From IMG/VR virus record IMGVR_UViG_3300031586_000008, positions 1 to 41,849 of that record: a stretch of 41,849 nt of DNA; one strand, written 5' to 3'. This stretch comes from a virus. This document shows positions 1-41,843 of the stretch, one piece after another. The notes below the pieces were generated by a model that made no database searches, was not told where the DNA came from, and was given only the letters and a program-made list of their open reading frames with translations. The position numbers were made by a program, and so were the translations under genes. Each line of letters begins with the position of its first letter. The stretch's first letter is position 1.

Positions 1-126
1 TCTGTATCATTATGGACACCCCGGGCTCGCCGTCAACGTTGAACGCCGAGGTCGGTTCAGTCTTCGACCATCGGACCTCTGCCACTTCACTCAGGTATAC
101 CGGCATCTCGCCTTTTTGCCCCACGA
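1..126 (-). pseudogene. Host RND efflux transporter gene fragment (interrupted)
   Basis: The minus strand is open from the phage boundary through base 1. It encodes about 41 residues including a YLSEVAEVRW segment followed by FNVDGEPGVSIMIQ. This matches the periplasmic segment of AcrB/CusA-family RND pumps, where a conserved LxDVAxV motif precedes an NGxPAVxLxI strand. Neither end of the gene is in the window; the reading frame runs directly into the phage end at 127. I infer that the phage inserted into an RND transporter gene. The family call rests on two short motifs, so it is reasonable but not certain. Confidence 0.6.
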
Positions 127-180
127 TGTCGAACACTATGTAACTTGGTAAGGGGGAATGTTCGAACACTATGCATTTGT
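127..180 (+). repeat. Left terminal transposase-site repeats
   Basis: The box CGAACACTATG occurs twice, at 130-140 and 163-173, exactly 33 bp apart. The first copy is followed by a TTGGTAAGGGGG segment. The reverse complement of the right end has the same arrangement, including TTGGTAAGGGGG and a 33-bp spacing of its ACTATGCA boxes. In Mu-type phages such end repeats are bound by the MuA transposase. The function is inferred from position and inversion. Confidence 0.8.
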
Positions 181-12294: not shown

Positions 12295-12732
12295 CTACAC
12301 CTCGTCCACCGCCGGCCCGTCACCGGATCGCAGCGATTTCATTAGTTCGCGAAACGTCTTTGCCTCAGCCTCAGTCAGTTCCGGTTCCCCTTCCCTGAGC
12401 CTGTCCAGATGCTCGGCTGGCGCGGTATCCTTTACGTCAAGCCGGAGCTTGGGTTGCTGCATCACTTTACTCTTGGCAAACCAATCGATTATCCGTTTTG
12501 CACAGTCCTCGCAGAGCCAGGCGTCGTCAGTGAGCTTGCGGAGCTGGTGCAGTTTGTAATAAACTGTCTGCGGGATCTCGCCCTTATGCTCTTCCATGAT
12601 TAGGGATATACCTTGCTTAATAAAACTGGACGCGTAGAGGAGCGTTGCCCCGCGGATCCCCGCTTCCTGTAAATTCTTTATCGGAATCTGGCAGACTATA
12701 CAGCGCTTCACCGGCTGTTTCTTCTTACTCAT
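12295..12732 (-). CDS. Zinc-ribbon-like early protein
   Basis: A 145-aa protein with two CxxC pairs, CIVC near residue 11 and CEDC near residue 74, enclosing a helical segment; this is a likely zinc-binding fold. The C-terminus is charged and acidic. The gene overlaps the end of the transposase gene by 8 bp and probably belongs to the same transcript. It has no named family that I recognise. Confidence 0.6.
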   Translation of the reverse strand: MSKKKQPVKRCIVCQIPIKNLQEAGIRGATLLYASSFIKQGISLIMEEHKGEIPQTVYYKLHQLRKLTDDAWLCEDCAKRIIDWFAKSKVMQQPKLRLDVKDTAPAEHLDRLREGEPELTEAEAKTFRELMKSLRSGDGPAVDEV

Positions 12733-14341
12733 TACCGCTCCTTAATTTTTCTTCGATCTCCGAAGGGGCAGGCCTGGCAAGGGTCTTGCCGATGCGTTCG
12801 GCCTGGCGTTTCACCTCGGCTTTCGAGTGCGGACTTGCAACGAACGGATCTATCATTTCCTCGCGCAGTTCGGCTGGTAGGTTGCCGAGCGCCGTGTTCA
12901 GGAGCTCGGCCAGAAGCGCTCGCTGCGCGTCATCACGTAATAGCTCTATGCCCGGCCCTTCAACTTTCGTGTGCCGCGTAGGCGGCGGCGGGGTAAGCGA
13001 TACGCCTTCGATGCGTGAATCGAGCACCGCTTCCACCTGTGCCACGCTTGCAGGCGGAACGTGTATCTGCCCGATTTGTTCCCTGATCCGGGCGGCCTTC
13101 TCGTCTACCGGCGGCGCTACGTTGAGCTCAGCCTCTTCGAGCGGCAGCCTGCGCGATAGGGCAAATGCGGTCCTGGGTAAATAGATATAGAGTTGCTCAT
13201 CGATCTCGATAATCTCGATTCGTTCACCGTCCGGGATCTCAGGTGGTGCGTAGTAGAGCTTGCGTTCGTATTGGATCAGCCCGCGCCGCACCGTTGCTAC
13301 GTGCTGTTTATAGGCAAGCTCGCGGAAGTTATCAGGGAACCACAAATCGCCTACGTGGTTGAGCCAGTAGTCGAGCCGCGTTCCTTTCGTCCCCGCATGC
13401 TGACGCAGGTTGAGTTTCATGCAGAACTTTTCAAGCATATCGTTCGCCTGCACCAATGAGAGCACCGTTCCGTATGCTATTCGGCCTATATCGAACCGTT
13501 CGAACTCCTCCTTGATGGGCCGGAACGAACGCTCGACTTTGCCCTTTTTCCAGGGTTGCCTCGGCGGCGTAAGGATTGGCTTGACGTCAAGCTTTTCAAG
13601 AAGATGCTGGACCGCTTCGGTTTTAGCCCAGCCTACCTGATCGGCGTACGTGCCGCGCGGCACGCCCCAGAACGGATAGCGAGGTTTGCGTCGCCAGGCG
13701 CTTTCAAGAAACTTGATTGCCAGCTCAGTATCCTCGCCCTTGGAAAGGAAATATCTGGCGAACATGACACCCGATGCATCGTCTACTATCGAGCCGATCC
13801 ATACCTTCTTCTTTCCGCCATCGAGCCTGTTCTCGTAAGGAATTTTATGATGGCTCCGCACCTGGACTCTGCCTTCACCGGCATAGGCAAGTGTGCGCGA
13901 GCAGGAGAAATCTATCTGATGCAGTGCGCCCGCTTCGTTTCTCTTGAACCTGCCCGTCGTCCGGTGCTGAGCGCCAAGCCGGAACCGGCGCATGAACTTT
14001 GATAACTCGCGCGGCTTGACCGCGCCGCGTGGGATGAACCCGAAATCTTCAGCCGACCCGATAGCCGCAGAGAGCGGCAGGCTCCGGGTCTTATTCGATA
14101 CGATGCAGGTCTCCAGATACCTGCTTGCTCTCTTCAACTGTGCAGCCTGGGCCTCGGTGAACTCGTACCGCCCCGGCTTGACGATGTACCCGCGCCGGAT
14201 CGCGTTGCGCAGCGCTCCGGGATGGCAGCCTGCACGTTCAGCCCATTTCACGAGCACTTCCTGCTTGCGGCCCCGGGCGGCGGAAAGATATTCTTCGCGC
14301 GCCCTGGCAAATGCCTGCGGCTTGAGCGAGATCGGCCTCAT
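12725..14341 (-). CDS. MuA-like DDE transposase
   Basis: A 538-aa transposase of the Mu/rve type. An N-terminal HTH (WAERAGCHPGALRNAIRRG, about 33-51) is followed by the RNase H-like core with catalytic D144 (HQIDFS), D234 (TYADQVG) and E270 (KKGKVERSF). The D-to-E distance is the usual D-35-E. A Mu-transposase C-terminal beta-barrel follows (VRRGLIQYERKLYYAPPEI) and then a tail that would contact the MuB-like partner. It catalyses end cleavage and strand transfer of the phage. ATG 14341 overlaps the preceding TGA. Confidence 0.92.
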   Translation of the reverse strand: MRPISLKPQAFARAREEYLSAARGRKQEVLVKWAERAGCHPGALRNAIRRGYIVKPGRYEFTEAQAAQLKRASRYLETCIVSNKTRSLPLSAAIGSAEDFGFIPRGAVKPRELSKFMRRFRLGAQHRTTGRFKRNEAGALHQIDFSCSRTLAYAGEGRVQVRSHHKIPYENRLDGGKKKVWIGSIVDDASGVMFARYFLSKGEDTELAIKFLESAWRRKPRYPFWGVPRGTYADQVGWAKTEAVQHLLEKLDVKPILTPPRQPWKKGKVERSFRPIKEEFERFDIGRIAYGTVLSLVQANDMLEKFCMKLNLRQHAGTKGTRLDYWLNHVGDLWFPDNFRELAYKQHVATVRRGLIQYERKLYYAPPEIPDGERIEIIEIDEQLYIYLPRTAFALSRRLPLEEAELNVAPPVDEKAARIREQIGQIHVPPASVAQVEAVLDSRIEGVSLTPPPPTRHTKVEGPGIELLRDDAQRALLAELLNTALGNLPAELREEMIDPFVASPHSKAEVKRQAERIGKTLARPAPSEIEEKLRSGNE

Positions 14342-15783
14342 AGTTTAGGGTCGGGTTCCTGGCCATCTTCTTTTTTCCCGTCTTCCATCCCGGTGATGCC
14401 CATCAAGTCAGTCATGCGCCCGCGCTCATCATAGGCGGCTTGTTGCGCGAGATCAGGATCGTGAGCGGAAAGCATCAAGGCGGAGGACAAGGCGCAAAGT
14501 ATCCCTTCGATCTTGCGGTATTCCTCCTGAATTTCGGGCGCCACCCCAAAGATTTCTGTCGAATCTTTTGGCCAACCCTTGAGGCGCTGGATGAACTCGT
14601 CGCGCACCTCGATGAGCTTGAGACGAATCGAGAAGTAGTCCGTAGCGATCAACTGAGCCTTCTTGCCGAGCGGCACGTTCTTGAACGGATCGTTCTTTTT
14701 CCATTCCTCCAGCGACTCCCGGGACGTCTTTTTCTCAAGCGCATGGTGCGTCTTGGGTCCGGCAAACTGGTTAATCAGGTTCGGGAACTCGGCGATGCCG
14801 TGCTGCAAAACCCAGCCGGTTGTTACTTCATCGCCTGACGCCAACCGGGCGCAGCCTTGCGTGCACAACGCCTCAAAGAATCGGGGAGCCTTCAAAAGTT
14901 CGCGAAGCTTGTAGTAAGGGATTTGAGCTATGCCCATCTCCTCAGCCTTTGCTATCACGTTCTCCTTGCCGTAATGCTTGATAAGGGCTCTGCCTATGGC
15001 GGCGCGGTAAAAAGCAGGTCGCCGAACAAGGCCAAAGGTATCCTTCATGGCTTCCTCGAAAGTGGCGTACCCGTCTATGGCCCAGGGGTATTTTCCGTTA
15101 ATCTGGCGCTCTAAGTTACGCAAATGCGATGAGGGGAGTGCCCCATCGGGCACTCTCTCCTCTTTTAGCCCGTCGGGCAATGCCCCGAGGTTTTCGTAAT
15201 CACCCAGTTCCTCGGTGGAGAAACTTGAGTCCCCGGCATACAGCGCTATTGCCACGCTCAAAAGTATCTCGCCGCGCATCTTGTCGTGTGCGGCCTGAGC
15301 CGCGTATTTGAACGCCGTCTCGTGGTCGTCCATCAGCTCCTGCGTTATCTGAACACGAATGGGGTATTGGCCTTTGCCTTTAACCTCAACTTCAGTGCCG
15401 ATGGCCAAGGGGTTTAAGCCCCTTGTCTGGTCGGACTTATCTGGGACAGGGGACTCGCTTGAAGCAAGGGGCTTAATCTCTTTGTCTGGAGGTAAGGGGT
15501 TCTCTTTCACTATCTTTCCTTTCGCGGCCTTCGGCTTGAGTTTGTTTTCTTCGATGCAGTTCTGCCGGTTTTCGTGGTATTTGAATCGCTCGGTATAGCT
15601 CTTCGCTTCAAAGCAATCCGAGCATTGCGCCGGGCTGACCTCACGGCCCCGGCGTTTACAGACAAAGCTCTGGCGTTTGATAGCCGCGGCTCCGTCCGGG
15701 TTGTCCTGCGCGCGGGCCTTATCCATTGCCGCCTCGCAGGCCTCGGTAGTTATTGCAGTCATGTGACTCTCCTGTGTTGACAT
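14338..15783 (-). CDS. 481-aa early protein with Cys motif; paralogue at right end
   Basis: The N-terminus has CKRRGREVSPAQCSDCF followed by H and C, a motif shared with two other early proteins. A spacer built partly from palindromic repeats follows. The core from YAAQAA to about GDEVTTGWVLQ is roughly two-thirds identical by eye to the 173-aa gene at 41121. The C-terminus is helical and acidic. The function is unknown; the FEEAMKDTFGL...AAIGRALI pattern may be HTH-like. It sits just upstream of the transposase, coupled by ATGA. Start is ATG 15783 (GGGAGGC site) or ATG 15762 (AGGAG site). Confidence 0.65.
   Translation of the reverse strand: MSTQESHMTAITTEACEAAMDKARAQDNPDGAAAIKRQSFVCKRRGREVSPAQCSDCFEAKSYTERFKYHENRQNCIEENKLKPKAAKGKIVKENPLPPDKEIKPLASSESPVPDKSDQTRGLNPLAIGTEVEVKGKGQYPIRVQITQELMDDHETAFKYAAQAAHDKMRGEILLSVAIALYAGDSSFSTEELGDYENLGALPDGLKEERVPDGALPSSHLRNLERQINGKYPWAIDGYATFEEAMKDTFGLVRRPAFYRAAIGRALIKHYGKENVIAKAEEMGIAQIPYYKLRELLKAPRFFEALCTQGCARLASGDEVTTGWVLQHGIAEFPNLINQFAGPKTHHALEKKTSRESLEEWKKNDPFKNVPLGKKAQLIATDYFSIRLKLIEVRDEFIQRLKGWPKDSTEIFGVAPEIQEEYRKIEGILCALSSALMLSAHDPDLAQQAAYDERGRMTDLMGITGMEDGKKEDGQEPDPKL
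15131..15187. repeat. Two hairpins inside the 481-aa coding sequence
   Basis: GAGTGCCC-CATC-GGGCACTC (15136-15155) and GGGCA-A-TGCCC (15175-15185) are adjacent inverted repeats. They encode the in-frame peptide ALPDG...VPDGALP, which is absent from the right-end paralogue. Confidence 0.7.
15406..15425. repeat. CAAGGGGC-type palindromic repeat, copy 2
   Basis: CAAGGGGTTTAAGCCCCTTG, in frame inside the 481-aa gene. Confidence 0.8.
15465..15484. repeat. CAAGGGGC-type palindromic repeat, copy 3 (decayed)
   Basis: CAAGGGGCTTAATCTCTTTG: the left arm is intact and the right arm has diverged. It lies 59 bp from copy 2 in the same gene, and both are followed by TCTGG. Confidence 0.7.
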
Positions 15784-17622: not shown

Positions 17623-17688
17623 ATGCAAGTTTTGGTTCCCCATGATAAAGGCCGGTGTGTTGCGTGCGTTCATTCTATCTTTTGTTGA
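17623..17688 (+). CDS. Possible 21-aa CxxC peptide
   Basis: Downstream of the promoter at 17552, a GAGAGGAG ribosome site precedes ATG 17623. The product (MQVLVPHDKGRCVACVHSIFC) has a CxxC and a terminal Cys. Its 3' end overlaps the convergent 60-aa gene. Initiation signals are good, but size makes it uncertain. Confidence 0.3.
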   Translation: MQVLVPHDKGRCVACVHSIFC

Positions 17689-17852
17689 GGCGGTGGAGGA
17701 TCTTGAGCAGCAGCAGCGGCTTTAGCGCGACGCTTTTCGTAGTTGTTCAGGGACTGAATCATGATGCCGCGGGCAGACACAGCGAAAACGTTTGCGATCT
17801 CTTCGATGTCCTTGTCGAAGAGGATAGTCCCGGATTTAAGGATTAAAGCCAT
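17670..17852 (-). CDS. First gene of leftward operon, hypothetical 60 aa
   Basis: ATG 17852 has a strong AAAAAGGAGG site; the frame also extends upstream to other Met codons without ribosome sites. The product has a short helical domain (DKDIEEIANVFAVSARGIMI) and an Ala/Pro-rich tail (AAAAAQDPPPPQQ). I do not recognise it. As the first gene after the early promoter it may be regulatory. Confidence 0.6.
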   Translation of the reverse strand: MALILKSGTILFDKDIEEIANVFAVSARGIMIQSLNNYEKRRAKAAAAAQDPPPPQQKIE

Positions 17853-17892
17853 GGCATCCTCCTTTTTTTGGCTTGTTACTCGCATGAGTAGA

Positions 17893-17920
17893 ATTGTAAC
17901 CAATTTGGTTCACTTGTCAA
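17893..17920 (-). promoter_or_regulatory. Main leftward early promoter with operators
   Basis: On the minus strand TTGACA (17915-17920), 16 bp, TACAAT (17893-17898). The spacer contains AACCAAATTGGTT, a perfect inverted repeat with one central base (17898-17910). The -35 is embedded in ACTTGACAAGT, also a perfect inverted repeat, which recurs at the rightward promoter (18810). Both are likely repressor sites. Confidence 0.8.
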
Positions 17921-18811: not shown

Positions 18812-18845
18812 TTGACAAGTGCTCTGATTTAACTATAATTATAGT
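18810..18845 (+). promoter_or_regulatory. Rightward promoter overlapping a 14-bp palindrome
   Basis: TTGACA (18812-18817), 16 bp, TATAAT (18834-18839). ACTATAATTATAGT at 18832-18845 is a perfect palindrome covering the -10 and ending at the base before ATG 18846. The -35 lies in ACTTGACAAGT as at the leftward promoter. Transcription would start at or next to the ATG, giving a leaderless mRNA. Confidence 0.8.
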
Positions 18846-19163
18846 ATGAAGAGGAAGACAACGAGCCGCAGAAAATTCTCAGAGCGCAAGGAGATCGCGG
18901 TGTATCTTGATGCCGTTGAGCTCAAAGCCCTCGACGAATTTATTAAGAACTACAATGCGCGTGCGTTAGTTCAAGCGTCACGGAACGACATGATTCGTCT
19001 AGCCGTGCGCAAGCTCGTTGTCACAAATCCAGCCGCGAGTGTGGCTGAAACCCCGGGGCAAGTGCCCCAGGAGGAAAGAAATGAAAGACCACAAAAACCA
19101 AACACGCCTTCAGGCGGCCCTTCAAGAATACCAGAATCGCCAAGCCCGGGCGAGTCATCCTGA
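18846..19163 (+). CDS. Ribbon-helix-helix-type DNA-binding protein
   Basis: The N-terminal 60 residues fit the RHH/CopG fold: basic tail, strand EIAVYLDA, helix ELKALDEFIKNY, turn, then ASRNDMIRLAVRKLV. The C-terminal 45 residues are disordered (Pro, Ser, Glu) and are encoded by repeat-containing DNA that overlaps the next gene by 83 bp. It is the first gene of the rightward early operon on a probable leaderless mRNA. The palindrome at its own promoter suggests autorepression, an inference from RHH biology. Confidence 0.7.
   Translation: MKRKTTSRRKFSERKEIAVYLDAVELKALDEFIKNYNARALVQASRNDMIRLAVRKLVVTNPAASVAETPGQVPQEERNERPQKPNTPSGGPSRIPESPSPGESS
19055..19068. repeat. GGCAAGTGCC hairpin next to ribosome site
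   Basis: GGGGCAAGTGCCCC directly precedes the AGGAGG site of the gene at 19081. The same core recurs at 19693. Confidence 0.65.
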
Positions 19164-22292: not shown

Positions 22293-23225
22293 ATGGCAGA
22301 AGATTACGGCAAAACCGAAACCCCGCTTACCGCGGATAACCTGCTTGCAGGCACGCATCCGCGGGTAGAGATTCCGGTAACCATCATCTCCGGTGCCGGT
22401 ATCCTCAAGCGCGGCGCGCTTCTTGGCCGCAGGATTTCGGATCTCAAATACGCGCCTATCACGCCCGGGGTAACCTATGCCGATGAGGATCTCGGAGACG
22501 GCAACGCTTCTACCAAGACCTTCTCCGGCACCCTGGCCCAGCCCGGAGTCAAGCCCGGGTCATTGGTAATCGCGGCGGTAGTAGTCGGCGGAGCAACCGA
22601 GACGTTCATCGATAACGGCGACGGCACCCTGACCTCGGACGGCGCAACGCCTGGAACGGGCACTATCGTTTACGCGACCGGCGCTTACAGCGTTACCTTC
22701 TTCGTCGAGCCCGACACGGGCGAAGACATACTGGCGACCTACATCGGCGACCTGACCGCACATGCAGCCGAGGCCATCGGCACCGGTGACGGCTCGATAG
22801 TAGAGTGGGCCGGTTATCTCGCGCTTACCAAGGTAATCGAGCGCTCCCTCTACGTTTACACGAACGATAGCTCAGCCAAGGAGCTGCACGACGACGGCAA
22901 TGGTAATCTGGTAGGCGACGACGGACATGGAACGATCAACTACGAGACCGGTGAGTACGAGATAGTGTTCGACACCGCACCTGCGAGTCCCAAAACAGTC
23001 AAGGCCGATTACTGCTCTACCGATGGCGTTGACGTTCCACGCGCGATTCTTGCTAAGGCCATAGACGCAACCAGCGCCGACGCCAAGGTACCGGCCTACG
23101 TGCACGGCGAGTTCAACTACGATTTCGCCGACCTGTGGCCAACCGGACTTTCAACCGCGCAGAAAGATGGAATCGCGCGCGCCTGTATGGAGCGCGCCAT
23201 CTTCATCAAAAAGCGCATCGTTTAG
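22293..23225 (+). CDS. Head decoration protein with two inserted beta-domains
   Basis: The ends resemble phage head decoration proteins (HDPD, lambda D-like): VEIPVTIISGAGILKRGALLG at the N-terminus and a C-terminal VPAYVHGEFNY, then ACMERAIFIKK. Between them lie two similar beta-domains of about 80 residues (about 67-152 and 162-239), each ending GTIxYxTGxYxxxF and a short A-x-Y. A related domain is inserted in the tail sheath. It would stud the capsid surface. An AAGGAG site precedes ATG 22293. Confidence 0.75.
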   Translation: MAEDYGKTETPLTADNLLAGTHPRVEIPVTIISGAGILKRGALLGRRISDLKYAPITPGVTYADEDLGDGNASTKTFSGTLAQPGVKPGSLVIAAVVVGGATETFIDNGDGTLTSDGATPGTGTIVYATGAYSVTFFVEPDTGEDILATYIGDLTAHAAEAIGTGDGSIVEWAGYLALTKVIERSLYVYTNDSSAKELHDDGNGNLVGDDGHGTINYETGEYEIVFDTAPASPKTVKADYCSTDGVDVPRAILAKAIDATSADAKVPAYVHGEFNYDFADLWPTGLSTAQKDGIARACMERAIFIKKRIV

Positions 23226-27001: not shown

Positions 27002-28834
27002 ATGCCTATAAAAGATTTACCCGGCTACTATCCTACCATTAAAGAAGGCGGGCTTGGCGTTCTACCGCCTTCGCTGGCCGGACTGTTCTGCCTGGTAGGA
27101 ACGTCAGAGCAAGGCACAACGGACGTTAAGTTCACGGGCGACGTAGGCGACGTTCTGGATGAATACGGCTACGGAATCCTGACCGCGCATGCCTACGATG
27201 CGTTCAGCTCAGGTGCGAGCCAGATAGGCATCGTTCGCGCGACCGCGGCCAAGGTTGCGACTGACATCACCGTACCGGAGCAGAAGAAGTACGGCGACCC
27301 GACCGGCGGGGGCGCCGCCGTAGTCGCTGTCGGCTACGTTTCCCCCCACACCCAGGTCGGCTATAACCGCCGCTACAGACTCCGCATCGTCAAGGGCGGC
27401 TCGTTTACCACCGCTACCTATCAGGTCTCGGCAAACGACGGCCTTACCTGGAGTGCGGAAAAGAGCTTCGCAGTTACTACCGCAGGGCCGCCGAAAAAAT
27501 CTAAGCTCGAACTGGATAACGGCACGTACATCGAGTTTACCGAAGACGGAACCCCTGCCGATAGCTTCGTTGCCGGTGACGAATACCGCTGGTGGTGCTA
27601 CGAACCGCGCGCTACGCTCGATGAGATAATCACCGCGTGTGAAAAAGCCGCTGCATGGAAGGATCCTACGTCGGGGATGGGCTTCGAATACGTTTACGTT
27701 TCCAACCTGCCCGCCGAGATCTGGACTACCCGGGACCAGACGACCGTCACCAACTTCTGGACCGCGCTCATTACCATTGCCGAGAACCTGTGGACGGACG
27801 AACAGCGCCCGATCTTCTTCATCTGCAACGCGCCGCCCATGCTGCCTTTGAAGGATGCCGACGCGCTCGAAGAGGTTGACGACTGGATAGATCTTCTCGT
27901 CGCCTGTGCCGGTGCCAAGAACTCGGCCCGGCTCGTCGTGAACGCGGCTCAGGCCTCGCTGACCGATACGCGCGGCAATCTGCAAATCCGCATGGCTGGG
28001 GGCTCCGCCGCAGGACTCGTCTCCAAAGCGGACCTTCATCATTCCATCGGCTGGGTGCGCTACATGAGCATCGCCAACTCGCTCGCTGTCTATCCTTCGA
28101 AACCTCCGTTCGCAGTAGAGGCCGAGTCTCTCGGTGCGGGTGATGACACCGAAAAGACCTTCGAGGGGTTTTTTGCCAAAGCGCCCGTCATTCCCTGGTC
28201 CGTCGTAATCACCTCGGACGATACCGCTCCCGAGGAGTTCGTGGACGGCGGGGACGGAATCCTCTACGACTCGACTTCAGGCGCAGAAGCCGGAACAATA
28301 GAGTACTCGACCGGCAAATACTCGGTGACTTTCGCTACGGCTCCGGCAACGGGCAAAACTGTCTCAGCAGACTACTACTACGTTACCAATGCCGTGATGG
28401 GTCCTTCGAACGTTGCCCGGCTCAACGACGCGCGGTATCTAAGCTTCAGGCACTTCATCGGCTACGGCATCAGGTTTACCGACGACTGGACAAGAGCTTC
28501 ACCAACTTCGGATTACTACTGCATCCGCTTCCGCAGGATAGTGGATGAGTCGATGCGCCAGGTAGGCATAGCGAACATGCCCTACATCAACTCGCCCGGT
28601 ATCACGGAGAAAGACCTGGGCGCTTACAAGGCCGATCTCTCCCGTCCGCTCGAAGCCATGAAGGTAACCGAAGACGATACCGATAAGCCGATCATGGATT
28701 ACGTTCTGACGCTTACGCCTGACGCGAACATCTGGTCGAACGGAATCGTGCACTGCAAGGTAGAGATAGTGCCTACGCCTACCAAAAAGAAGCTGGTAGC
28801 CACGTTTCAGTTGACGACCGGCGTCAAGGAATAG
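27002..28834 (+). CDS. Contractile tail sheath protein (Mu gpL-like)
   Basis: A 610-aa sheath protein. The N-terminus reads DLPGYYPTIKEGGLGVLPPSLAGLFCLVGTS, the middle is a large beta/alpha domain, and the C-terminus (PDANIWSNGIVHCKVEIVPTPTKK) carries the conserved strand that interlocks subunits. An extra beta-domain at about residues 380-460 (GDDTEKTFEGF ... GTIEYSTGKYSVTF ... VSADYYYV) resembles the two inserts in the decoration protein. AAGGAG precedes ATG 27002. Confidence 0.85.
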   Translation: MPIKDLPGYYPTIKEGGLGVLPPSLAGLFCLVGTSEQGTTDVKFTGDVGDVLDEYGYGILTAHAYDAFSSGASQIGIVRATAAKVATDITVPEQKKYGDPTGGGAAVVAVGYVSPHTQVGYNRRYRLRIVKGGSFTTATYQVSANDGLTWSAEKSFAVTTAGPPKKSKLELDNGTYIEFTEDGTPADSFVAGDEYRWWCYEPRATLDEIITACEKAAAWKDPTSGMGFEYVYVSNLPAEIWTTRDQTTVTNFWTALITIAENLWTDEQRPIFFICNAPPMLPLKDADALEEVDDWIDLLVACAGAKNSARLVVNAAQASLTDTRGNLQIRMAGGSAAGLVSKADLHHSIGWVRYMSIANSLAVYPSKPPFAVEAESLGAGDDTEKTFEGFFAKAPVIPWSVVITSDDTAPEEFVDGGDGILYDSTSGAEAGTIEYSTGKYSVTFATAPATGKTVSADYYYVTNAVMGPSNVARLNDARYLSFRHFIGYGIRFTDDWTRASPTSDYYCIRFRRIVDESMRQVGIANMPYINSPGITEKDLGAYKADLSRPLEAMKVTEDDTDKPIMDYVLTLTPDANIWSNGIVHCKVEIVPTPTKKKLVATFQLTTGVKE

Positions 28835-36956: not shown

Positions 36957-38963
36957 ATGAGTAACAGGTTTAACCGCAACGACGCGAATGTCAAAGACGA
37001 TAGGATGTTCTGCACCGATTTCCAGGTAGACCAGAACGGCCAGGACGCCGATCTGCTGCAAACCGCAAAGGACTTCGGCTGCCTGCCGTGCATAGGCGCA
37101 GGGCTTGACGTTGCGAGCCTTTCGGAGCCTGATCACAAAGTGCAGATCGCGGCAGGCTGGGCTTACGACACCGATGGGCACCGGATCACCATTTCCTCGG
37201 TGCAGGAGGCGGTGCTTACCGATACCGCAGGCGGGAATAACTACGTCATCCTCTCGCATCAGTTCGTCACTTCAGACAATCGCAACGCGCACCGCACCGG
37301 CGTTTCGTATCCCACACGCAAGGCCTCATCGTTCGTGCTCACCGTCCAGGGCGCAGCTCCGGGCGTGGACGACATCTGCCTCGCTAACTGCAAACAGACC
37401 GGCACCGGAACCATCACCATTGACGTTACCGAACGCTTGAGCAGGGAGTGCAAGCTGGTGTCCCAGGACAAGGTCCCGGGCGTTATCCCTGAAGGCGAAG
37501 AGGCTGCGGGACCGCCGCCGCCGCCAGGCTCGAAACCGGAACTCCCGGACTATCCCAAAGGCCGGGACGTGCCCATGCCTATCATTCTCTCCGGCACGCG
37601 CTCGGGCGAAGCATGGGGCGGCATCGAAACCATCATGCCCGAAGAGCTTGGCCGCACTACGGCTGCTCAATCCGCACTTACCCTTGAACGGGTGAACCTG
37701 AAGTCCGGCACCCCTTTGGCCGACGTCAAGGTCTGGATAGGTGACTGGGGAACCGGTATACGCGACGCCGTCAACCTCAAGAAGTGCAACTTCACCATGC
37801 CCGCGAAATCCGGCGTCACCGCCTGGGATGCAGACCTCTGGGTCACCGATCCGCCCGGTTATTATTACTTGGTTCTCGGCGACGAAAGCTGGTATTCAAA
37901 AATCACCGCATCGGACGGGAACTCGGTAACCTGCGAGGATGACCTGCCTGATGTCAGTTCCCATACGTTCTACGTCTGCCCTTATGCGGAGCTATACCGC
38001 TCACAGGTGATCCCGTATAAAACCGACGCGGAGCCGGATACCACGAATCTCCAGACCACGCTGGATTATAGCCGCATCGCCTCACCAGTGGCTCCGATAG
38101 TGCTTATCAAAAGTCTCAACCTGGGCGGCAAGTATAAAATCAAGGTAGCGTCGGTGATCTCCGGCGACAACTACACCAAATGGGCGGAGGCTGACTTTAT
38201 CGTAGGGTCAGATTTCGTAACTTGCTGGCAGCCTTCTTCAGGCTACCTCAACGTGATCCCGGTTGACGGCGGGGTTGAGGTAATCATCCCTGCGCCGACC
38301 GGCGGGACCATAGAGCCTGAAGCATACGAACTCTGCTATACCTACGGCACGGACGCCGTCCCGGACCCGCCTACGCCGGATTTCGACAACGCGGAGCACG
38401 CTACGATCCGTACCAAGGAGCGCAAAGTCAAGATAGACGCGCCTCCCGGTCGGAAGGTGAAAATCAAATGCCGCGCTATTTACCGCCGCGCGGTGATGCG
38501 CTGTTCGGGCGAGGATAAGATCCTTGCCTCCGAAGACGCCTACGTCACCGCAGGCGGCGTCTCGATCCGGCGCAACCGCAAGGCGTTTACCAATCCCATC
38601 AAAGAGACCAGCCTTGCCGCCGGAGCCACTGCCCTTGCAGATCAACAGAAGCTCCCCAACTCTATCTGGCCGGAAAACATCTCGCTCTTTAATCCTACCG
38701 CCGCGGAGCAGAAGGATTTTGAGGTCTATATCCACGGCTCCAACGAGGATTACCTGGCAGGCCGCAAGATTCAGATAGGAACCGGCGGCGACGCGGGCAC
38801 CATCGGCGCCCGGGGCTGGGTCGAAAAGGCGATCTCCGATTACCGCATCTCCGATCCGGCCATGAAAGTAACCGTCAAAAACATCCACGCAACGAACGCG
38901 CAAAGCTTTGACCTGCGCTATACCGTCGAGTACCGCGAAGATGCCGCGGGCGAGCTTGCATAA
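36957..38963 (+). CDS. Tail fibre/adhesin-type protein
   Basis: 668 aa. The N-terminal domain (about 1-160; VQIAAGWAYDTDGHRITISS) resembles baseplate-binding fibre domains. A Pro-rich linker (about 178-195; GPPPPPGSKPELP) follows, then several fibronectin-like beta-domains. The C-terminal domain ends FDLRYTVEYRED. It likely contacts the host surface. AAGGAG site upstream. Confidence 0.68.
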   Translation: MSNRFNRNDANVKDDRMFCTDFQVDQNGQDADLLQTAKDFGCLPCIGAGLDVASLSEPDHKVQIAAGWAYDTDGHRITISSVQEAVLTDTAGGNNYVILSHQFVTSDNRNAHRTGVSYPTRKASSFVLTVQGAAPGVDDICLANCKQTGTGTITIDVTERLSRECKLVSQDKVPGVIPEGEEAAGPPPPPGSKPELPDYPKGRDVPMPIILSGTRSGEAWGGIETIMPEELGRTTAAQSALTLERVNLKSGTPLADVKVWIGDWGTGIRDAVNLKKCNFTMPAKSGVTAWDADLWVTDPPGYYYLVLGDESWYSKITASDGNSVTCEDDLPDVSSHTFYVCPYAELYRSQVIPYKTDAEPDTTNLQTTLDYSRIASPVAPIVLIKSLNLGGKYKIKVASVISGDNYTKWAEADFIVGSDFVTCWQPSSGYLNVIPVDGGVEVIIPAPTGGTIEPEAYELCYTYGTDAVPDPPTPDFDNAEHATIRTKERKVKIDAPPGRKVKIKCRAIYRRAVMRCSGEDKILASEDAYVTAGGVSIRRNRKAFTNPIKETSLAAGATALADQQKLPNSIWPENISLFNPTAAEQKDFEVYIHGSNEDYLAGRKIQIGTGGDAGTIGARGWVEKAISDYRISDPAMKVTVKNIHATNAQSFDLRYTVEYREDAAGELA

Positions 38964-39064
38964 TGGCATGGACACTGCGTCCTTCCCCCGGCGGGCGGCA
39001 GACTTCCGACTCCTGCCCGTGTTCTGTCGCCCGTCGGGGATTAACATCATGGAGGCATAGATGA
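38963..39064 (+). CDS. Possible 33-aa coupled peptide
   Basis: A short frame starts at the TAATG that ends the fibre gene and ends at ATGA overlapping the next gene. The peptide is Arg/Ser-rich with a CPC motif. Double coupling is suggestive, but the composition looks non-coding and hairpins are present. Probably spacer; recorded for completeness. Confidence 0.2.
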   Translation: MAWTLRPSPGGRQTSDSCPCSVARRGLTSWRHR

Positions 39065-40335
39065 ACACGAGCGGCAGCTCCACGCGCACCGTTGAAGTCA
39101 TCAGGGTCGGAACTATCGGCCTGGAGAAGGACTATCCAGGCAAGCAGGTCGTGCGCCTGCGCGACGTCTCTAAGCTCTACGAAGGACCCCTGCGGGGACT
39201 GGCAACCGCCAAGCGGTGTGCATTCAGGACAGGGCACGGCATCACCATGGCCGAGTTCTGTCGAATCACGGGGCTTTCCGACGAGAACCTGGCACAGCAA
39301 TCCGGAGAGCCGAACCCTAACGTGGAAAACCTCAAGAGCCGCCACATCATAGACATGCGATTCCTGGTCCCCACTTTACAGGCTACGACCATCGCGGTGG
39401 AAGATCTGTTCGATCGCATCAGGGGCAAGCGGCTTGCAGGCATCAACGTGGAGATGTGGGACCAGATCTCAGGCGCGTATCTGGGCACGTTCAATACCGA
39501 TAAGCACGGGACTTTGATTTTGCCTACCGACCGTGAGTTCGTAGAGGTTCTGCAGTGGAAGCTTGCAGGCGGCGGGTATTCAGACTGCTTCAACGGCGAG
39601 CGCGCCGCAGGGATGCCCGGATTATTCTTCTACTTCCCCTGCAATGAAGGCGCAGGCACCACTATCAAGAGCTTCTCCGGCGTCAGTGGCCAGCAGGCCG
39701 AATTGCCGGGTGGTGTCTCGCCGTTCTGGGGGTGGTATGACTCCGGCTTCTTCCACCGCCCGGCATTAAGGATTTTGCAAGACGCCGAGCCTTTACAGCT
39801 TATGGGCGCTGACCCATTAGGCAGACGAAGTTTTCAGTTCTTGTGGTATTGTGCGGATCCCAGCCGGGCGCATCCCCTTTTCGCCTACTCCCTGGATGCG
39901 TTCAAGTTGCAAGTTAATAATACGGGCGTGCTTGAAGGAAGCGTCCTGGGCGGCCAGGAATCCACGCAAGGCAGGACCCCTTTGCAGCCTGAAACTTGGT
40001 ACCTGATTCAAATCAATGCCGAGCTGGTCGGCGGCTGGAACCCGCAAGGAGGTGGCGGGTCTGGTGCTTACGAATACCAGGTTACGATGCAGGTTTATCT
40101 CGGCGGGGCACTGGAGTTGAGCATAGTACCTGCCGGATCCTTAAGCCCCCTAATGGGGGTACCCGGGTCGAGCACTCTGGCTCTGCTTACGGGCGTAGAA
40201 AATGACGGGTTCGATGAGATACGGCATCTCCCCAGATGGTTGTATCCTACCGAGATAACGAGCTACGCGACGTTCCTAAAGAACGGGCGTGTAGAAAGCA
40301 AATCGCAAGGCTCGTTAGGATCCCCAGGATGGTAA
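39061..40335 (+). CDS. Second tail fibre-type protein, LamG-like domain
   Basis: 424 aa. The N-terminal part is a mixed domain (TMAEFCRITGLSDENLAQQ). Residues about 180-400 look like a concanavalin/LamG jelly roll: FYFPCNEGAGTTIKSFSGVSGQQAEL, then FQFLWYCADPS ... LFAYSLDAFKLQVNNTG, then TWYLIQINAEL. Such modules bind carbohydrates, so receptor binding is plausible. A GGAGG site precedes the ATG. It is the last late gene, followed by a separate cargo promoter. Confidence 0.65.
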   Translation: MNTSGSSTRTVEVIRVGTIGLEKDYPGKQVVRLRDVSKLYEGPLRGLATAKRCAFRTGHGITMAEFCRITGLSDENLAQQSGEPNPNVENLKSRHIIDMRFLVPTLQATTIAVEDLFDRIRGKRLAGINVEMWDQISGAYLGTFNTDKHGTLILPTDREFVEVLQWKLAGGGYSDCFNGERAAGMPGLFFYFPCNEGAGTTIKSFSGVSGQQAELPGGVSPFWGWYDSGFFHRPALRILQDAEPLQLMGADPLGRRSFQFLWYCADPSRAHPLFAYSLDAFKLQVNNTGVLEGSVLGGQESTQGRTPLQPETWYLIQINAELVGGWNPQGGGGSGAYEYQVTMQVYLGGALELSIVPAGSLSPLMGVPGSSTLALLTGVENDGFDEIRHLPRWLYPTEITSYATFLKNGRVESKSQGSLGSPGW

Positions 40336-40344
40336 AACAAAAAC

Positions 40345-40372
40345 TTGACAGGCAGGGCAACGAGGCTATAAT
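40345..40372 (+). promoter_or_regulatory. Cargo operon promoter
   Basis: TTGACA (40345-40350), exactly 16 bp, TATAAT (40367-40372): perfect consensus hexamers. The -35 is preceded by AAAC, giving the ACTTGACA half of the early operator. It lies directly after the fibre gene. Confidence 0.85.
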
Positions 40373-40377
40373 TAAGC

Positions 40378-40422
40378 ATGAGAATACGAATCGCCCTACG
40401 AGGGCATAAGGAGGACGCATGA
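40378..40422 (+). CDS. Possible 14-aa leaderless leader peptide
   Basis: ATG 40378 lies 5 bp after the -10, so the mRNA would start at or beside it. The frame MRIRIALRGHKEDA contains the AAGGAGG site for the cargo gene and ends in ATGA with its start. A GCCCT/AGGGC hairpin (40393-40405) precedes the ribosome site. It could couple or attenuate cargo translation. Confidence 0.35.
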   Translation: MRIRIALRGHKEDA

Positions 40423-41108
40423 AAAACCAAAACCATCTCCCTCTCCCTGGTGGAGGGGGATTAAGGGGGAGGGGGATCATACTCCTTCTCCTGCTCGCAG
40501 CGAGCCTTTCCGCCGCCCCAGTGCTGGTCGAGGCGTATCAGGAAGGGACCATCACGATCCCTGGGGATAAAATTGACACGGTCACGGTGGTTGAACTGTC
40601 GTTCTCCGTAGACACCGCGTGCTACGTGCAGTTTATGGCAGGGGGGTTGGTCGCACCTGCAAAAATGTTTTTGGAGTTAAACGACAATCGTTTATTCCCT
40701 GTCGCGATAGAACGAGGATATGGAGATCGAGCTATCCAGATTGGGTATGTTTATCCCCTTACCCCTGGCCAATATGCTGTCCATCTTAAAATGACTAATA
40801 TCCTGGGAGGTATCCTTGCTACTTGTCATAATGCCTACCTCCAGGCGCTTATCTTTTTGCCGGATGAACCGAGTGCAGTAGCCGAGCCGCCGCCTGATGG
40901 CGACCTTCAGCCGCAAGCGATGAAAAGTGTCGTAAGCAAAGGCCCCTGGGTTTCAGCGCCGGGCGCAACCGAGCTTGTGGACGCCTCTGGACGGGTGATC
41001 GAGAACGCCATAGTCGCGGAGCGCGTCCAGATCTCAACCCTGCCCGCAGGCACCTACTTCGCCCGGGACGGGGAACGCACCGTAGTTAAGATCGTAAAGG
41101 TGGAGTAA
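40419..41108 (+). CDS. Secreted cargo protein with T9SS-type C-terminal sorting domain
   Basis: 229 aa. The N-terminus has a signal peptide (GIILLLLLAASLSAAP, cleavage probably after SAA), preceded by Gly-rich codons from a CCCTCTCCC hairpin. The middle is a beta-rich domain of about 110 residues. After a Pro-rich linker, the last 45 residues (ATELVDASGRVI ... ISTLPAGTYFARDGERTVVKIVKV) match the type A sorting domain of T9SS cargo: 'D.sGr.v', 'L.aGtYf', 'g....Kivk'. It would be exported through the outer membrane. Own promoter and end position suggest lysogenic conversion. Confidence 0.75.
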   Translation: MKNQNHLPLPGGGGLRGRGIILLLLLAASLSAAPVLVEAYQEGTITIPGDKIDTVTVVELSFSVDTACYVQFMAGGLVAPAKMFLELNDNRLFPVAIERGYGDRAIQIGYVYPLTPGQYAVHLKMTNILGGILATCHNAYLQALIFLPDEPSAVAEPPPDGDLQPQAMKSVVSKGPWVSAPGATELVDASGRVIENAIVAERVQISTLPAGTYFARDGERTVVKIVKVE

Positions 41109-41120
41109 GGAGAGAAAGAA

Positions 41121-41642
41121 ATGCGACGTAAATCCTCACCAGCTCGTGATGCCGCGCTTGCATACGCGGCCCAGGCCGCAAAGAACAAGAGGCGCGGCGA
41201 GATACTACTATACGTAGGGATCGCACTCTATGCAGGGCAGCCATTGATAAACCACCACCACGGGCGTTTTAATGAATTGGTAGGACATTGTCCCTGGATC
41301 ATAGATGGATATAAGTCCTTCGAGGAAGCTATACAAGATGTCTTTGGAATGAAACGGGGGACTGCTTTTAACCGTGCTGCCATAGGTAGGGCACTTATCA
41401 ACCATTACGGCACGGAGAACGTAATCGAAGAGGCCGAACGTATGGGCATAGCCCGAATTCCTTTTTGGAAACTGCGCGTGCTTGTCAGGGCCCCCAAGTT
41501 CTTTGAAAGCCTTTGCACACACGGCTGTGCACGGCTGGCGAACGGTGATGAAGTATCGATCTCCTGGATACTAGAACAAACTATGGATAGATTAAAGAAA
41601 AGTATCCCTTTACAGCCTCCCAACAAAACTACAGCCACCTGA
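41121..41642 (+). CDS. Truncated paralogue of the 481-aa early protein
   Basis: 173 aa with an AAGGAGAG site, co-directional with the secreted-protein gene 12 bp upstream. From YAAQAAKNKRRGEILLYVGI to GDEVSISWILEQ it aligns with the core of the 481-aa protein at about two-thirds identity by eye. It lacks the N-terminal Cys domain, the palindrome-encoded insert and the C-terminal domain. A competing or regulating version of the early protein is one inference; a decaying duplicate is another. The end overlaps a right-end repeat. Confidence 0.65.
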   Translation: MRRKSSPARDAALAYAAQAAKNKRRGEILLYVGIALYAGQPLINHHHGRFNELVGHCPWIIDGYKSFEEAIQDVFGMKRGTAFNRAAIGRALINHYGTENVIEEAERMGIARIPFWKLRVLVRAPKFFESLCTHGCARLANGDEVSISWILEQTMDRLKKSIPLQPPNKTTAT

Positions 41643-41758
41643 CCTTTTCCCGTCTAGCGATGGGGGACACAAGCCACCCGATTCTGCCAAATTCTTAAAC
41701 ACAACACTACAGCGACCATACCCTAACCTTTCCATATCGCCCTAAACAAAACTACAGC
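41622..41758 (+). repeat. Three ACTACAGC repeats near the right end
   Basis: AACAAAACTACAGC is found at 41622-41635 and 41745-41758, and a 12-of-14 match lies at 41700-41713. The last two are 45 bp apart, the same distance as between the first two left-end AAAAGGTTACA repeats. The first copy overlaps the 3' end of the last gene. They may be transposase or host-factor sites. I cannot assign the binding protein. Confidence 0.5.
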
Positions 41759-41789: not shown

Positions 41790-41843
41790 GAAACTGCATA
41801 GTGTTTGGCCCTCCCCCCTTACCAAATTGCATAGTCGCCGACA
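41790..41843 (-). repeat. Right terminal transposase-site repeats
   Basis: Read on the minus strand from 41843, the sequence starts TGTCGGCGACTATGC, continues with TTGGTAAGGGGGG, and repeats ACACTATGC 33 bp further in (GCATAG boxes at 41829-41834 and 41796-41801). This mirrors the left end in sequence and spacing, as expected for inverted MuA-type binding sites. Confidence 0.8.

Follow-up and report, generated by a model that had tools for sequence, protein, structure and literature searches.

The analysed stretch of DNA (41,849 nucleotides, an IMG/VR virus record, indicated below as the window) is, by its sequence, a nearly complete Mu-like transposable phage; its relevant features are reported in Table 1. 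The two ends consist of 55-bp inverted repeats, 75% identical, with an alignment score of 62, against a maximum of 37 obtained by shuffling. The left junction is exactly defined by the empty site, present in WOR-3 JAGMDF (L008) and in Stahlbacteria DAOVCF (L009), which reads GCCCCACGA/TTGTG. At the right end the host flank measures 6 bp and does not match a target duplication, so that it may derive from another insertion. The window also encodes tape-measure, tail and baseplate proteins, recognized by PHROG or Pfam models, while a MuB-like ATPase is weakly recognized (AAA_22, 25.7 bits; PHROG 296, E = 0.028). The gene order is of the Mu type and is common to the window and to a close relative (G001), whose sequence ends before the region discussed here.

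Table 1. Location of the described features within the window, with the basis of each assignment.
Feature	Position	Strand	Basis
Host DNA flanking the left phage end, RND efflux gene fragment (gene on minus strand)	1..128		41-aa translation
Left terminal inverted repeat, starting with TGTCG	129..178		Alignment to right end
MuA-like DDE transposase	12725..14341	-	PHROG 310 (transposase), E = 7.5e-21
Tail-fibre gene g39061, variable lectin-like C-terminus	39061..40335	+	Constant neighbour of cargo gene
Promoter TTGACA-N16-TATAAT	40345..40372	+	12/12 consensus match
Ribosome-binding site AAGGAGG	40408..40414	+	Sequence; short distance 5' of ATG 40419
Cargo gene, 229 aa	40419..41108	+	ATG at 40419; dN/dS 0.15-0.30 between homologs
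Signal peptide, residues 1-33	40419..40517	+	Sequence and predicted helix 16-29
Repeat-like in-frame insertion in n-region (HLPLPGGGGLRGRG)	40434..40475	+	Alignment; missing in most homologs
Passenger, TNF/C1q-like jelly roll, residues 34-149	40518..40865	+	AlphaFold2 and Foldseek
Short T9SS C-terminal sorting domain, residues 173-229	40935..41105	+	TIGR04183 positions 24-71; motifs VDASGR, LPAGTYF, KIVK
Downstream gene g41121	41121..41642	+	50% identity with a portion of early gene 14338-15783
Right-end group of three ACAAAACTACAGC-type repeats, candidate sites for transposase binding	41623..41758		3 found vs 0.42 expected
Right terminal inverted repeat, ending with CGACA at 41843	41792..41843		Alignment; 91% over 55 bp to L036 phage end

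Because the terminal repeats enclose positions 129-41843, the gene indicated as "cargo", which encodes a putative substrate of type IX secretion (T9SS), falls within the phage, at 0.7 kb from the right terminus. The original prediction had described it as phage-borne, in agreement with its location internal to the two terminal repeats, where it is flanked by a tail-fibre gene and by a second phage gene. Mu carries the mom gene on its right side. As for the genes closest to the two ends, g41121 is the last one of the phage and is a partial paralogue of the early gene 14338-15783, while the gene adjoining the left end (250-909) has relatives in L010 (10647-11288) and in L109 (11889-12548). The former is located beside the core of a terminal repeat, the latter directly 3' of a cargo copy, within a broken tail gene.

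The perfect promoter, reported upstream of the cargo ORF, is indeed present: the -35 box TTGACA (40345-40350) and the -10 box TATAAT (40367-40372) are separated by 16 nt and match the consensus at 12 positions out of 12. Two sites of this quality are found in the window, and none across 20 mononucleotide shuffles. A promoter matching at 11 or 12 positions precedes all the 11 complete homologs belonging to group A (see below), the window being counted and the loci not being independent samples. The definition of "strong promoter" needs caution, since such promoters are fairly common in the lineage: 37 out of the 234 ORFs of the fetched loci feature a site matching at 11 positions or more within 150 nt. 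A terminator follows the cargo copies in L036, L114 and L115b; none was found after the window copy, where cargo gene and g41121 are probably co-transcribed. The second 12/12 site of the window (18812-18839) lies before the ORF at 18846, and an 11/12 site on the minus strand (17920) lies before the minus-strand ORF of the 17670-17903 region, both with a 16-nt spacer.

The cargo protein was modelled by AlphaFold2, starting from an alignment of 20 natural homologs (mean pLDDT 82). In the model, a helix (residues 16-29) precedes an all-beta domain (35-146); a linker with poor order then leads to a small beta unit at the C-terminus (177-227). The signal peptide is predicted from this helix and from inspection of the sequence: a basic n-region (R16, R18), a hydrophobic stretch (20-30) and the sequence S-L-S-A-A are recognizable, and cleavage by signal peptidase after A33 is plausible. 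The insertion found in the n-region contains short direct repeats at 40449 and 40465. Dispersed-repeat-like DNA, read in frame into the n-region of the cargo signal peptide, is observed in two separate copies (window, 40434-40475; L114, 9612-9680).

The strands of the passenger are located between residues 35 and 146, with block pLDDT mostly ranging from 87 to 96. When compared by Foldseek to PDB structures, the passenger matches Pgp3 best, including its C-terminal TNF-like domain; other matches are BclA, C1q, EDA, ExsFA, CBMs and a phage spike, with E-values (0.002-0.02) indicating likeness at the fold level only. In a viral library, collagen-like and tail/J proteins are matched with E-values from 1e-4 to 3e-6. 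The modelled fold is one commonly seen in surface trimers and in the tips of phages.

The presence of a T9SS type A-like sorting domain, also part of the original prediction, is supported by the homolog family and not by the score of the window protein itself. TIGR04183 matches this protein with 18.9 bits (E = 0.0011), below the curated cut-off of 23 bits, and Pfam PF18962 with 12 bits (E = 0.26), below its cut-off of 27: the cargo is therefore filed, by homology, only as a short-CTD variant. The match covers positions 24-71 of the 72 of the profile; the domain, which spans about 57 residues counting from S173, is too short to match the first third. The same stretch is matched in 10 out of 10 members of the homolog alignment (A1). 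Ten homolog proteins, scanned singly, score 16-22 bits each, and the cut-off is passed by three more distant or recombined relatives (L043, 29.2; L117, 23.7; L040, 23.4 bits). Residues S173, D188, G191, R192, G211, Y213, K224 and K227 are invariant across the alignment, and the window protein features motifs B (G191 R192), D (G211 T212 Y213) and E (terminal basic residues K224 and K227). With I, V or L as the next residue, S173 is reminiscent of the small-residue/Ile pattern at which Prevotella cargo is cleaved, and may be a PorU site. In L040 the cargo-type tag is found on an unrelated passenger, a portability expected of a sorting tag; in two long host proteins (L047, L048) the same kind of tail, LYDASGR...LPTGVYF...KVVK, is located behind a canonical WPNPF start. 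A small HMM, built from strong host CTDs, barely detects the family (L109 only, E = 0.003); its seeds are partly faulty (wrong frame) and mostly of the long type, and it was not relied on.

Sub-threshold TIGR04183 and Pfam scores, such as those of the window protein, might result from a chance match or from a decayed domain, the cargo being in this case an ordinary secreted periplasmic protein. This is very improbable, as every scanned homolog matches at the same stretch, three of them above the cut-off, the motifs are invariant, the tag is reused on another passenger and the host is rich in T9SS components. The sorting tag may be regarded as credible, although the window protein itself scores under the threshold.

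Short CTDs of 43-55 residues, composed of three strands, have been experimentally shown to be cleaved and glycosylated in Prevotella intermedia (PMC11969387), and surface transport of HBP35 depends on its last 22 residues, which include motifs D and E (PMC3120885). The cargo domain is similar to these short or minimal CTDs in length (about 43-60 residues), in the G plus basic residue of motif B, in the GxY of motif D, in the basic motif E, and in the small residue followed by Ile, Val or Leu at the presumed cleavage site. Differently from them, it belongs to a host of another phylum, and its cleavage and anchoring are predicted.

The host was searched by using a chimera of host flank and terminase pieces as the query of one genome scan, which matched WOR-3 and Stahlbacteria genomes only. 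The 41-aa translation of the left flank is 95% identical to the WOR-3 MAG JAGMDF and 90% to Stahlbacteria DAOVCF. From this match with MAGs, the predicted host is an uncultured WOR-3/Stahlbacteria family, composed of eight genomes as grouped by the search tool; all host genomes are MAGs. SprA scores over the cut-off in all eight of them and PorU in six. TIGR04183 matches range from 67 to 150 per genome, some of which may be related FlgD-like domains. Among 14 control genomes, the SprA, PorU and TIGR04183 models are matched in only one or two. The predicted host lineage owns a T9SS, as the original prediction had anticipated in suggesting a search for porU and sprA genes, and the presence of SprA, PorU and tagged proteins makes the description of a phage-borne T9SS cargo well supported.

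Homologs of the cargo are found in 8 of the 147 genomes of the phylum, which are exactly the eight of the host family. Those of group A are 52-62% identical to the window protein, falling to 34-41% for L107, L109 and L119; those of group B are 27-31% identical. Scans performed with the cargo only, on viral and genome contigs, INPHARED phages and PDB sequences, found no homolog; these negatives say little, since the pattern scan missed relatives about 60% identical, later found by whole-genome search. The dN/dS values of group A (Table 1) indicate that the cargo gene is under purifying selection. Within the group, mean identity is 0.48 for the passenger and 0.70 for the tag.

The constant neighbour of the cargo is the tail-fibre gene g39061, defined as lectin-like by sequence inspection only, a poor structure model (pLDDT 46) not being used. 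A homolog of this gene, or its 3' end, is located just before the cargo in L035, L036, L107, L113, L114 and L115. The right terminal repeat follows the cargo in L036, and its 17-nt core is kept in L114, L037 and L044. The statement that phage structural genes do not need such a protein must consequently be revised: the cargo travels with g39061 in several phages and domesticated clusters, and this recurrence places it in a tail-tip/surface cassette, instead of marking it as an isolated random moron.

A different reading would make the cargo a part of the virion, namely a tail-tip accessory of the fibre locus, whose signal peptide and CTD would be left over from the source host gene. In its favour are the position directly 3' of the fibre gene, in several phages and in domesticated clusters, and the similarity of the jelly roll to domains of phage J/tail proteins and fibre tips. 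However, signal peptide and tag would route the protein out of the cytoplasm, where virions are assembled, and most copies retain both of them under purifying selection, the tag being intact and conserved. Furthermore, all the group-A homologs examined possess a promoter of their own, and beside the stand-alone copies L034 and L116 no recognizable phage structural gene was found; a possible fibre remnant (IKGSLGTPGW) lies upstream of L034. A role within the virion appears, on the whole, distinctly improbable.

Fibre ends and passengers are swapped independently: L035 has 97% of the fibre end but 46% of the passenger in common with L115a, and 94% of the passenger but 50% of the fibre end in common with L114. 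In the cassette, promoter and tag are thus constant, and passengers can be exchanged. No covariation is observed between cargo type and g39061 C-terminus (rho 0.08, p 0.70; 8 loci, with partial fibre ends), which argues against a strictly fibre-cognate immunity protein, and leaves room for general glycan shielding or for an adhesin. The strictly cognate immunity protein was set aside on this result and on the L035/L115a comparison. At other right ends or tail-module ends, two further secreted genes are found after the cargo position (L114, 10430-11380; L044, 9900-11400; L040, 9263-10258). The first encodes an NLISYQGK-type protein, and is located in L114 behind its own TTGACA-TACAAT; the second encodes a 128-aa protein with a T9SS-like tail and a GTETSTLGQP passenger. 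This end of the phage or tail module seems to be a surface-protein island.

Structural genes of the window phage have counterparts in the genomes of the host family. A single homolog per genome is found in 8 out of 8 for the major capsid protein (59-61% identity) and the portal (63-67%), and the tail protein 36957-38963 has a homolog in 7 out of 8; a full-length transposase gene is absent from all eight. Capsid and portal distances follow those of the host SprA (Mantel rho 0.72 and 0.96, respectively, p about 0.001), with dN/dS of 0.02-0.15. The tail module ends beside one histidine-ammonia-lyase-like gene in G004, G006 and G010, and a cargo copy is beside the same gene in G005; the terminase module is at a separate locus, beside one 1670-aa gene in G004, G005 and G006. 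The tail module is closed by the cargo in G004 and G010, and a tag fusion is found at this place in G006. This vertically inherited, transposase-less structural cluster (loci L111, L141, L142, L144, L146, L107, L035, L040, L013 and L014, from genomes G004-G011) is a candidate gene transfer agent (GTA), or an otherwise domesticated phage. Capsid proteins of G004 and G005 are 99% identical, while the cargos beside the lyase-like gene are 54% identical; the G005 copy is 74% identical to the window cargo. Exchange of the cargo with infecting phages is the simplest reading of this contrast.

Group B homologs are located in host chromosomes, without phage genes (L042, L043, L117, L118, L120, L121). 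Together with the C1q/TNF-like and CBM-like fold matches, they would be in agreement with a gene for host fitness or adhesion (biofilm, substrate binding) carried by phages, which would give lysogens an adhesin unrelated to phage adsorption. Such a gene is unlikely in view of the link between the close group and tail-fibre ends, and of the hypervariability seen in G004 and G005 beside the same host gene, which looks more like phage-driven diversification than like a housekeeping adhesin.

Phage morons are independently transcribed accessory genes of prophages. Like them, the cargo has its own promoter, sometimes a terminator, and is located at a variable phage end. Unlike sporadic morons, it is found repeatedly at the same site beside the fibre gene, and the window copy, having no terminator, may share a transcript with g41121. 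The best explanation for the described features, and a reasonably probable one, is a moron-like cassette at the phage right end, encoding a jelly roll which would be displayed by T9SS and would change phage adsorption. The sigma-70-type promoter would allow cargo transcription while phage late genes are silent; the product would be exported by Sec and would fold in the periplasm as a TNF/C1q-like jelly roll. The short CTD would then mediate handover to host SprA/PorU, with the tag cut near S173 and the domain fixed on the cell surface. Export and surface display are very likely, the steps of export, cleavage and anchoring being deduced from sequence features. Lysogenic conversion, as initially proposed, with expression in the lysogen, is plausible.

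The most probable effect of the displayed domain would be a change in adsorption, obtained by shielding glycans or receptors used by the same or by competing phages; superinfection exclusion would follow, in a way similar to T5 Llp, and the lysogen surface would be altered. A role in exclusion or adsorption, drawn by analogy, is put forward tentatively, as a possibility short of an even chance; it is preferred to other functions in view of the tail-fibre gene link and of the diversified passenger. Llp is an outer-membrane lipoprotein, active in E. coli, which causes superinfection exclusion by acting on FhuA (PMC9586334). Both Llp and the cargo are small phage-encoded proteins of the outer membrane or surface, and the effect of the cargo on adsorption is proposed by analogy. 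Unlike Llp, to which it is not homologous, the cargo would be displayed by T9SS and shows no cognate covariation with the fibre.

A phage-borne T9SS cargo is, in itself, already known: Bellas et al. (2020, PMC7468147) reported one in Cryophage and described it as unique there, and T9SS-tagged ORFs are found in crAss-BACON phages (PMC6949934). These phage genes, as in the window, end in a T9SS type A sorting domain. In those reports the cargos (an endoglucanase, a GH39, a PA14 protein, or BACON-domain ORFs) come from genes described as variable or neighbouring. The window differs from them in the jelly roll joined to a short CTD, in its own conserved promoter, in the WOR-3 Mu-like phages involved, in the coupling to a tail-fibre gene and in the many homologous loci. 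As judged from the compared loci, the new features are a recurrent right-end cassette behind the fibre gene, with a near-consensus promoter in 11 out of 11 cases and a passenger whose exchange does not follow that of the fibre tip, and the presence of the cargo also at the end of a single-copy, transposase-less, vertically inherited phage structural cluster.

Phage reshaping of the host surface via type IX secretion had previously been noted once or twice, for isolated genes. In the literature searched, no paper combining WOR-3 and type IX secretion was found; WOR-3 is a phylum without a cultured model, and no described phage was found for it in the papers retrieved. With the cargo family, a use of T9SS display by phages for superinfection exclusion becomes accessible to testing, and the same bacterial family also yields a candidate GTA. 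A broader hypothesis, rather doubtful at present, is that Mu-like phages and the vertically inherited GTA-like particle of the WOR-3 family share and exchange a surface-display cassette, which diversifies the host surface and controls docking. If so, the cassette would control which phages or particles dock on lysogens and sister cells, and would represent a dedicated, phage-evolved use of type IX secretion.

As a separate observation on the structural genes, the sheath-like protein (27002-28834) and the protein encoded at 22293-23225 have one repeated domain in common, which is also inserted within gpI of the domesticated clusters L035, L040, L107 and L110.
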